Shown here: positions 43,260-59,629 of the stretch, one piece after another | Position numbering within the stretch: the stretch's first letter is position 1 | Layout: the number at the start of each line of letters is the position of its first letter | Source of the DNA: Atrina japonica | Taxonomy: Eukaryota > Mollusca > Bivalvia > Pterioida > Pinnidae | Length of the DNA stretch: 64,000 bases | Reading direction: 5' to 3' | NCBI GenBank assembly: GCA_030159075.1 | Contig: BROG01000231.1 | Span: 909,939 to 973,938, forward strand | Translations under genes and position numbers: made by a program | Notes under the pieces: generated by a model | The model's database searches: none | Seen by the model: the letters and a program-made list of their open reading frames with translations, nothing else | Told to the model about the DNA's origin: nothing

Positions 43260-43569
43260 ATGTTAATAAATACCAATGTTATTTTACTTCTTATCATACT
43301 GATTTCAAGTTTGCCACTGTGTTTATCTTCCACGTTGTGTTATTCCGGAAGTGGTGAGTTAGAAGGATTTTGTTACGACCGAACGTTGGCTGAAGAGGAA
43401 GATGTCCACATTGCGGTTTTGGTCAGTATCCACGAACCCCGGATGGGCAGATTCTGTGGTGAGATATCCGCGGAAGGATTCCAAAATGCCGTAGCCGTAG
43501 AATGGATATTGAAGTTACTGAACGGAAATGGAAATAAAAGTTTATCTTTCATACCTGGAGTTCGTTTAG
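43260..43569 (+). CDS. Receptor exon 1
   Basis: Signal peptide and the first strands of flytrap 1 ([27 protein letters not shown]). ATG chosen because a signal peptide follows directly. Donor TTAG/GTAGGT. Confidence 0.9.
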
Positions 43570-58500: not shown

Positions 58501-59629
58501 GGACGACTCTTCCGTCCCCAGTGGAAACACGGATACGGTCAACGATTTTACAAGTGAATTACCATCGAGGAGTTATTCTGCTGATGATATTACTGCTGAT
58601 ATGCCATCTTTAAATTATATGACTGCCAAAGATTTACAAATGGAAGACGAGGATGTCTCAGTCGACAAGGCTCCCACGCCAACTGACGTGCCAATTTATT
58701 TTGACAAAAACACAAATACCGCAAGGTATATTCCTATGAACAACAAAGATATTGAGTGGGAAAATGTGCAACAAGAAAATCCGCGTATGGATCAACAAAA
58801 TACAAAACGGCCTAAAACTCTGCCAGGGATTGGTCCCCGTGTTGTGAACAATCATTCACTACCACGAACAATACAATCTGCGCATGTCCATAGTCCAGCA
58901 CCCCATCAACCAACCATGTACTTAAATCCTATAGGTAATACGGATCATGATTATCCTAGTACATCTCCTCATCAGATGTTAAACTCTCCACATAATGTCT
59001 TTCCAGTAAATCCAACCTATATTTACAGTGATGAAACTGGTGCTAAAATTCCTCTCTTTGTGACACCTAAGGGGGAAATTGTGTCACCAGGACATTTTGT
59101 AAATTTACAGGTGCAGTCGCCAATGCATGAACATCAGATTGCAAACACAATGGGCTTTCCTTCACCAGTTCACAACAGAAGTGTGCCAGCGCATTTCCAA
59201 GTGGCAAACAGACGTCCAGTCGTACAAAACCAGAATAGAAGTATGCCTCAAACTTCAATAAACATGCAAAATGCTCAAAATGATTTAAGTAGATCTGCTA
59301 CAGCTGGCAGACATGAACAATATCCAGGCAATGTTCGTTTTACGCAGCCTCAGAACGTTTATAATGCTCAATCAAATATGTACCCGCATATTTTTCAAAA
59401 CAAGCAAACTGGTGTTTACAGTAATGCAGGTACAAAACATGACGGATTAAGATCTTTACCTATTGCTTCGTCTAGTTCTAAAATACCTTTACAACATCAA
59501 CACTTATCAAATACTTTACCAAAGAACATGAATCCCAATGAACTCCGTACAGCTTCCACTGTACTGATGCCTGATGTAGTATCACACGAGGCTATCGAAC
59601 GAGAGGATGAAAACGAGGTCATGATTTGA
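43260..59629 (+). CDS. Single-pass receptor with two tandem mGluR-like Venus-flytrap domains
   Basis: Eight exons (43260-43569, 49435-49569, 49967-50121, 50884-51789, 52471-53278, 55863-56515, 56871-57222, 58158-59629) join to 4,791 nt, 1,596 aa. Order: signal peptide (1-24); flytrap 1 (about 47-500); flytrap 2 (about 540-1010); a short Cys segment (C1025, C1032, C1036) and Thr/Pro stalk; one transmembrane helix (about 1065-1089); a 507-residue Asn/Gln/Pro/His-rich tail. Flytrap 2 follows class C GPCR ligand domains closely ([41 protein letters not shown]). Its counterparts of mGluR1 S165, T188, D208, Y236, D318 and K409 are S655, S678, D698, Y726, E805 and R902, so an alpha-amino-acid ligand is likely. 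Flytrap 1 lacks the D208 and Y236 equivalents. No 7TM, kinase or cyclase follows. The tail holds YDEP (SH2-type site) and ends VMI (class II PDZ-like). I know no named family with this layout. Confidence 0.9.
44860..45310 (-). mobile_element. Retroelement 3' end with part of the coding region
   Basis: Minus-strand copy of the family: 3' part with cagataccaaggtataaacc and caccgtgagtctacgg, then coding remnants matching 62189-62434 (reverse of tatgaaatgttcatatgata, ggatatcaaaaaccgcataa on the minus strand), with disruptions. Confidence 0.75.
45608..45706. repeat. (TA)n microsatellite with retroelement end fragment
   Basis: About 49 TA repeats. Immediately after it, 45710-45750 (agataccaaagtataaatca) is the extreme end of the same retroelement family. 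Confidence 0.9.
46034..46152. repeat. (CA)n-(TA)n compound microsatellite
   Basis: About 14 CA repeats pass directly into about 43 TA repeats. Confidence 0.95.
46870..47240. repeat. 33-bp minisatellite, about 11 copies
   Basis: Units ctagagttgatcatctatcc plus tgaaaactaaacc, in receptor intron 1. Confidence 0.93.
47415..47640 (-). mobile_element. Retroelement 3' end fragment
   Basis: agataccaaagtataaatct, gttggatcaggtgccatgga, ttgaccggtcacacccgccg: minus-strand copy of the family, truncated before the coding part. Confidence 0.8.
48755..49000. repeat. Degenerate tandem repeat
   Basis: Loose units around tatgagagtgcacattttat and ggagtggacttcttatgta, strongly diverged. Confidence 0.65.
49435..49569 (+). 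CDS. Receptor exon 2
   Basis: Encodes [20 protein letters not shown], equal to the LG-x-x-I-x-D-x-C turn of mGluRs, then [17 protein letters not shown]. Phase 1 at both ends. Confidence 0.9.
49967..50121 (+). CDS. Receptor exon 3
   Basis: Encodes the flytrap 1 hinge segment ([28 protein letters not shown]). The site equal to mGluR1 D208 is not Asp. Confidence 0.9.
50285..50470 (-). mobile_element. Diverged retroelement 3' end fragment
   Basis: In receptor intron 3: taccaaagtattaacc, ttccagaggtgggaaa, cctgtcgaccgatcacatcc. An old minus-strand copy of the family. Confidence 0.6.
50884..51789 (+). CDS. Receptor exon 4
   Basis: A 302-codon exon forming lobe 2 of flytrap 1 ([20 protein letters not shown] onward). 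Several N-glycosylation sites (NST, NVS, NIT, NKT). Ends in phase 0 at CAG/GTATGT. Confidence 0.92.
51790..52470. other. Receptor intron 4
   Basis: AT-rich, holds an ATT microsatellite. Confidence 0.8.
52297..52363. repeat. (ATT)n microsatellite
   Basis: About 22 ATT repeats with one GTT interruption. Confidence 0.95.
52471..53278 (+). CDS. Receptor exon 5
   Basis: Linker with C-rich [10 protein letters not shown], then lobe 1 of flytrap 2 ([55 protein letters not shown]). Holds S655, S678, D698 and Y726 of the predicted ligand pocket. Confidence 0.93.
53279..55862. other. Receptor intron 5
   Basis: Mostly a 34-bp minisatellite. The plus ORF at 55153-55518 (121 codons) has no recognisable domain, and flytrap 2 is continuous without it. 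Confidence 0.7.
53858..54905. repeat. 34-bp minisatellite, about 31 copies
   Basis: Highly regular units cagttgtgtaaattaccccc plus gtgtaccagtccct. The tccctcag and tcccacag variants are mixed, the second gaining towards the right. Copies are near identical, so the array is young or kept uniform. Units abut, with no spacers. Confidence 0.96.
55863..56515 (+). CDS. Receptor exon 6
   Basis: Lobe 2 of flytrap 2 ([53 protein letters not shown]). Holds E805 and R902. Phase 0 donor GAG/GTAGGT. Confidence 0.93.
56516..56870. other. Receptor intron 6
   Basis: Short AT-rich intron; nothing else seen. Confidence 0.8.
56871..57222 (+). CDS. Receptor exon 7
   Basis: End of flytrap 2 ([12 protein letters not shown]), three cysteines, a Thr/Pro-rich stalk and the only transmembrane helix ([20 protein letters not shown]), followed by a basic stop-transfer segment. 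Confidence 0.92.
57223..58157. other. Receptor intron 7
   Basis: Holds one inverted-repeat element near its start; the rest is unique. Confidence 0.75.
57274..57554. mobile_element. Inverted-repeat element in receptor intron 7
   Basis: Left end ggggccggtttcatttaagg with tcgtaactta; reverse complement of the right end ggtccccagtttcgctaaag with ttcgtaactt. Many internal tacgt words run in both directions. The ends recall the 37360-37498 element, so they may be related families. Confidence 0.65.
58158..59629 (+). CDS. Receptor exon 8 (cytoplasmic tail)
   Basis: One long exon of 490 codons. The sequence is polar and rich in Asn, Gln, Ser, Pro and His, with no recognised domain and probable disorder. 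YDEP near its start and the C-terminal VMI are the only linear motifs noted. Stop TGA at 59627-59629. Confidence 0.9.

Follow-up and report, generated by a model that had tools for sequence, protein, structure and literature searches.

In a 64,000-nucleotide stretch of the genome of the bivalve Atrina japonica (GenBank assembly GCA_030159075.1, contig BROG01000231.1, positions 909,939 to 973,938 of the forward strand; hereafter the window), we identified a gene for a receptor that carries two Venus flytrap (VFT) domains in series, a single transmembrane (TM) helix, and a long cytoplasmic tail, and that belongs to a conserved family of molluscan proteins. This family of tandem-flytrap, single-pass receptors appears to be undescribed so far, as the matches listed in the open-access literature included no description of a single-pass animal receptor with tandem flytraps, nor of a G protein-coupled receptor (GPCR) with five flytraps. 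A first-pass annotation of the same DNA had joined eight in-phase exons into a protein of 1,596 residues with two mGluR-like flytraps, one TM helix, and no catalytic domain, a layout that it did not assign to any named family. Our analysis arrived at the same exons, residue count, and layout, which fits neither class C GPCRs nor Venus kinase receptors, guanylyl cyclase receptors, or NPR-C. The low-complexity tail described there and the view of the receptor as an isolated oddity gave way to a tail with conserved motifs and to 22 database relatives in two paralogue groups.

The open reading frame (ORF) of 1,596 amino acids is assembled from eight exons on the plus strand between positions 43260 and 59629 and closes at one stop codon (Table 1). 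All seven introns have GT-AG boundaries, with phases of 1, 1, 0, 0, 1, 0, and 1. Proteins of the relatives matched seven of the eight exons independently in tblastn searches; the remaining exon 3 was matched only by the window's own protein and is continuous in the family alignment. Exon 2 was located by a scan for splice sites and phase fit between exons 1 and 3. With a weak acceptor (score -0.8) and only the sixth place by splice score among the 59 phase-compatible candidates for the region of exons 1 to 3, it was chosen on the strength of homology. Five relatives (P0001-P0005) match this exon in the correct frame (best P0003, 50% identity, E 4.9e-10), and with it included the ANF_receptor score in Pfam is 165.1 bits instead of 153.7. 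A seven-exon model without it (1,551 amino acids) was rejected because the first flytrap then misses a conserved loop, DDCG, which the in-phase 45-residue exon supplies and which has a counterpart, DDCY, in the second flytrap. A 34-bp tandem repeat (53849-54899, 31 copies, 96% match) lies in a raised-GC part of the intron that separates exon 5 from exon 6.

The order of domains in the encoded protein is an N-terminal hydrophobic, signal-like segment (residues ~1-25, judged by hydropathy), the flytraps VFT1 and VFT2, both of the mGluR type, one TM helix, and a tail of 504 residues. The profile searches and structure prediction that the first-pass annotation had proposed both agree with this order. 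Pfam recognized ANF_receptor in two stretches of the receptor and, at E<=1, no 7tm_3, kinase, cyclase, channel (Lig_chan), or NCD3G domain. Fold models built on the relative P0001, with 19 relatives as further rows in the first fold and 18 in the second, show both flytraps. In addition, tblastn searches of the window with seven-transmembrane (7TM) relatives among P0009-P0014 as queries detected no 7TM homology at E<=1e-3. Hydropathy reaches 3.25 at residues 1066-1084, the single strong TM segment of the window protein, and exactly one strong TM segment follows VFT2 in all 23 proteins compared (the window protein and all 22 family members fetched; counts for VFT1 omit P0006). Weaker hydrophobic stretches (1.84-1.96) occur within the flytrap region of P0003, P0007, P0018, and P0020. 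A cysteine triad, C-x3/5-C-x2-C, separates VFT1 from VFT2 in 23/23 proteins, and a second triad after VFT2 is found in 18/23; between flytrap and TM helix the window protein has only this triad and, by Pfam, no nine-cysteine domain.

The relatives were recovered by three protein searches, in which the 7,998, 7,992, and 8,000 candidates sharing most words were scored; the second search recovered 3 of the 22. The first-pass annotation had also suggested looking for the same domain order in other animals, and the layout of flytrap, Cys triad, flytrap, one TM helix, and tail was found in 22 of the 23 proteins, the window protein included. The exception is P0006 from Tegillarca granosa, which begins at VFT2, lacks VFT1, and is probably a short or truncated gene model. 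All 14 relatives with a species name come from bivalves or gastropods. Their database names are "uncharacterized", "hypothetical", or "unnamed", apart from P0005 of Mizuhopecten yessoensis, which is called "Metabotropic glutamate receptor 3"; since P0005 has no 7TM domain, we regard this name as a mislabel. Eight relatives are uninterrupted frames of 1,295-1,438 amino acids on contigs of 4.2-5.6 kb, which presumably represent cDNA.

The family falls into two groups. Group A (eight members with the window protein) includes proteins of Saccostrea cucullata, S. echinata, Pinctada imbricata, M. yessoensis (P0005), T. granosa (P0006), and Mercenaria mercenaria (P0007). Among the species of group B (15 members; P0008, P0015-P0028) are Mercenaria, Mactra antiquata, Sinanodonta woodiana, Dreissena polymorpha, Saccostrea cucullata, Mytilus edulis, and the gastropods Haliotis rubra and Physella acuta. 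Mercenaria and S. cucullata carry both groups, and thus A and B are paralogues. Because the gastropods nest inside group B in the first flytrap tree, the A/B split is probably older than the divergence of bivalves and gastropods.

According to PMC2680970, mGlu1 holds its alpha-amino acid with five residues, which we scored in both flytraps in the form S/T, S/T, D, Y, D/E. In VFT2 the motif is intact in 23/23 proteins, suggesting that the ligand of this flytrap is an alpha-amino acid or a derivative of one. In VFT1 it is complete in none of the seven group A proteins and in 8 of the 15 group B proteins; VFT1 of group A, having lost the motif, is thus predicted to serve something else.

The tail, 271-581 residues long across the family, is disorder-like in composition, and its windowed entropy (3.47 bits vs 3.51 for the ectodomain) is not that of a low-complexity sequence. 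In group A, a tyrosine motif of the form [SIVL]xYxx[ILV] stands at tail position 72-83 in 8/8 proteins. Shuffled tails had such a motif in the window 70-85 in 2.2-3.4% of trials per sequence, chances that are not to be freely multiplied because this window was picked after the motif had been seen and the sequences are related. Two further islands, LNYxxAKDL-type and RPxTLPG, are each shared by 7/8 group A proteins; the latter reads RPKTLPG in the window protein and fits RxxTxP, a 14-3-3-type motif. The C-termini of all 23 proteins fit a putative PDZ-ligand pattern (Phi-x-Phi or S/T-x-Phi, Phi being hydrophobic), in the form Phi-x-Phi in 8/8 group A proteins and S-x-V in 15/15 group B proteins (ISRV in 13, VSRV and ASDV in the remaining two). 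Group B tails also share an SH3-type PxLPxR motif (13/15; 2-11% in shuffles) and a KKQPRTQLAV-type island (10/15). The labels given here to tail motifs, namely immunoreceptor tyrosine-based inhibitory motif (ITIM), YxxPhi, SH3 class II, 14-3-3, and PDZ, follow their usual definitions.

The receptor was compared with several known systems. By sequence and predicted fold, VFT1 and VFT2 are flytraps of the type found in class C GPCRs (mGluR, CaSR, T1R, GPRC6A), and VFT2 shares their amino-acid motif; unlike these receptors, the window protein has two flytraps and, according to Pfam, neither a 7TM nor a nine-cysteine domain. It also differs from guanylyl cyclase receptors in having no cyclase or kinase-homology domain and from ionotropic glutamate receptors in having no Lig_chan domain (Pfam, E<=1). 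ITIM receptors resemble it in the pattern [SIVL]xYxx[ILV] (here IQYTDI), which keeps one place in all eight group A tails. The ectodomain of NPR-C consists of one flytrap-type domain. According to PMC3796523, NPR-C is likewise single-pass without a catalytic domain, has no guanylyl cyclase activity, and reportedly influences Gi by way of a short tail; this tail measures 37 residues, compared to 504 residues, and two flytraps, in the window receptor. Venus kinase receptors combine a flytrap with one TM helix, and a recombinant one is reported in PMC2680970 to be activated by L-arginine, whereas the window receptor lacks the kinase domain and has two flytraps. SmGBP, a truncated Schistosoma mGluR, is another mGluR-type flytrap without 7TM but, according to PMC3206071, is a tailless protein of 488 residues with a single flytrap. 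The bacterial sensor kinases BvgS and EvgS are membrane proteins that also carry tandem flytraps, but their domains are periplasmic and their output is a histidine kinase.

Tandem flytraps also occur in P0011 (Mytilus californianus LOC127711239 isoform X2; 2,798 amino acids), an uncharacterised class C GPCR model in which, unlike in the window receptor, five ANF_receptor stretches are combined with a 7tm_3 domain. Each of its flytraps 1-4 is trailed by a C-x3/4/5-C-x2-C triad like the linker between VFT1 and VFT2. In the flytrap tree all VFT1s form one clade, joined by P0011 V1 (support 100/99), and all VFT2s form another (100/100) beside P0011 V2-V4 (91/88). The first tree omits four relatives (P0002, P0015, P0016, and P0027), and the second omits these as well as P0017 and P0020; R_P0010 (short) is missing from both and R_P0009 (long branch) from the second. 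Approximately unbiased (AU) tests reject both the five flytraps of P0011 as one clade (p 0.004) and VFT1 plus VFT2 of the family as one clade (p 0.005). A separate tandem duplication in each lineage is thereby rejected, on trees with one GPCR, long branches, and no outside root. The similar linkers and the grouping of P0011 V1 with VFT1 suggest that the tandem is probably older than the separation of single-pass from 7TM forms and that the 7TM domain was then lost, loss being the direction of change that we infer. On a wider view, which we offer tentatively and with somewhat less than even confidence, a molluscan poly-flytrap lineage would have arisen from a repeated unit of flytrap plus CxxxCxxC. 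Some members would have kept the 7TM domain (Mytilus, with five flytraps), and others would have lost it before the bivalve-gastropod split and become single-pass amino-acid sensors whose signals pass via docking motifs of the tyrosine, SH3, and PDZ types. Such docking would be another output of a class C flytrap, in addition to G proteins and built-in enzymes.

The structure of the gene, the order of its domains, the predicted fold, the conserved motifs, and the family are established, and from them we propose that the protein may be an amino-acid-gated, single-pass docking receptor of molluscs, a reading that we consider evenly balanced between right and wrong. The membrane-proximal VFT2 would bind an alpha-amino acid or a derivative and close. 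VFT1 would sit atop VFT2; since group A VFT1 has lost the ligand motif and kept its fold, its role is probably to make dimer contacts or to bind a different ligand. Closure of VFT2 would shift the single TM helices of a presumed dimer and so alter access to the long disordered tail, where the conserved tyrosine motif, if phosphorylated, and the PDZ-type C-terminus could recruit SH2 and PDZ proteins as signalling partners. The ancestor would have been a class C GPCR that was already multi-flytrap and from which the 7TM domain was lost. The flytrap ranks among the small-molecule sensors that animals use most, with G proteins, kinases, cyclases, and channels as its known outputs. A conserved family with two flytraps and a motif-bearing tail would add a further output and illustrate how a GPCR can give rise to another receptor by losing a domain. 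The ligand of VFT2 is directly testable, since the amino-acid motif is retained there.

Several observations weigh against this proposal. The tyrosine motif also fits an AP-2 endocytosis signal; the SH2 and PDZ motifs are short, and a Phi-x-Phi end has a chance of ~7% per sequence in a tail that is about a quarter hydrophobic. Two tail islands of group A are absent from P0007 of Mercenaria. In group B, just 5/15 proteins show the tyrosine pattern, and at scattered places, so that the tail route is not family-wide. The proposed origin rests on that single five-flytrap GPCR with its long branches and unrooted trees, and the groups submitted to AU tests were chosen after the first tree had been seen. 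A VFT1 profile scored P0011 V1 at 204 bits vs 181 for an ant mGluR, a slight margin, and a VFT2 profile built without P0011 V2 gave 288 bits for P0011 V4 vs 286 for the same ant protein.

The receptor could instead be a co-receptor, in which VFT1 pairs with a 7TM class C receptor of the same animal, for example a multi-flytrap GPCR, and signals via this partner. Class C receptors function as flytrap dimers, Mytilus has a related 7TM receptor with five flytraps, and a group A VFT1 that keeps its fold without the ligand motif is what a contact or regulatory domain would look like. However, the 7TM partner is hypothetical, 8 of the 15 group B VFT1s retain the motif, and the conserved tails suggest cytoplasmic partners of their own, which makes a co-receptor unlikely in our view. 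The same tails bear on a clearance or decoy receptor like NPR-C, which would bind an amino acid or peptide for endocytic uptake. Such a role would suit a single-pass protein without a catalytic domain, as NPR-C is described in PMC3796523, and [IV]xYxx[ILV], present in 8/8 group A tails, fits the YxxPhi endocytosis signal. Still, tails of this length with several conserved islands and PDZ-type ends exceed the needs of uptake, and even the 37-residue tail of NPR-C acts on Gi according to the same account; we therefore consider this role rather improbable. Among the options named in the first-pass annotation (decoy, adhesion or scaffold receptor, and co-receptor), the conserved motifs and C-termini of the tails lower the likelihood of a pure decoy, and a scaffold or signalling receptor is favoured.

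An adhesive or synaptic scaffold, with flytraps binding a partner protein across cells and the tail anchored to a scaffold, would agree with the disordered, motif-rich tail and with PDZ-type C-termini throughout both groups, but adhesion has no need of an amino-acid motif kept in every VFT2, and we give this possibility little weight. The least credible alternative is an artefact of the gene model, in which the exons would be parts of a gene for a 7TM protein or a kinase, or of two separate genes. The model does rest on genomic DNA rather than on an A. japonica transcript, and exon 3 lacks an independent match among the relatives. Against an artefact stand the same domain order in the 22 relatives (P0006, without VFT1, excepted), the coincidence of the conserved group A C-terminus with the stop codon of exon 8, the negative search of the window with 7TM relatives at E<=1e-3, and the uninterrupted ORFs of relatives on short contigs. 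The docking receptor stays our preferred reading, and the features of its gene are collected in Table 1.

Table 1. Coordinates of the receptor gene and of its sequence features in the window
Feature	Position	Strand	Content	Support or occurrence
Exon 1	43260..43569	+	Start Met, signal-like segment, start of VFT1	tblastn P0001, E 6e-21
Exon 2	49435..49569	+	45 aa, GYEIFDDCG..., VFT1	Phase 1-1, AG/GT; matched by P0001-P0005
Exon 3	49967..50121	+	52 aa, VFT1	Splice sites, frame, and family protein alignment only
Exon 4	50884..51789	+	VFT1; site of group A amino-acid motif loss	tblastn match of relatives
Exon 5	52471..53278	+	End of VFT1, Cys-triad linker, start of VFT2	P0004, E 1e-83
Inter-flytrap Cys triad CRDKCSVC	52537..52560	+	Residues 525-532	
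Exon 6	55863..56515	+	VFT2, with SEAWG (residue E805)	tblastn match of relatives
Exon 7	56871..57222	+	End of VFT2, second Cys triad, TM helix	tblastn match of relatives
TM helix	57099..57173	+	About residues 1066-1090	Helix also in P0001 model
Exon 8	58158..59629	+	Cytoplasmic tail and stop	P0003, E 8e-31; P0002 match reaches 59626
YDEP (YxxP-type)	58193..58204	+	YDEP/YEEP/YDSP at tail position 25-29	7/8 group A
IQYTDI	58358..58375	+	ITIM-like [SIVL]xYxx[ILV], also fits YxxPhi	8/8 group A
Conserved tail island	58607..58654	+	16 residues	7/8 group A; substitutions in P0005 and P0006
RPKTLPG	58808..58828	+	Conserved tail island	7/8 group A
C-terminal EVMI	59615..59626	+	PDZ class II-type end (Phi-x-Phi)	8/8 group A
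AATAAA	60900..60905	+	Possible polyadenylation signal	Downstream of stop

In the window as a whole, no RNA families were detected at gathering scores. Two large tandem arrays occupy positions 859-4108 (24-bp unit, ~135 copies) and 5841-7364 (84-bp unit, ~18 copies). An ORF on the minus strand (16476-16748) matches the LON substrate-binding domain (E 8e-7) and may be cereblon-like. On the plus strand, an ORF at 28465-29007, rich in Gly, His, and Asp, matches DnaJ weakly, short of the Pfam threshold (E 0.004).
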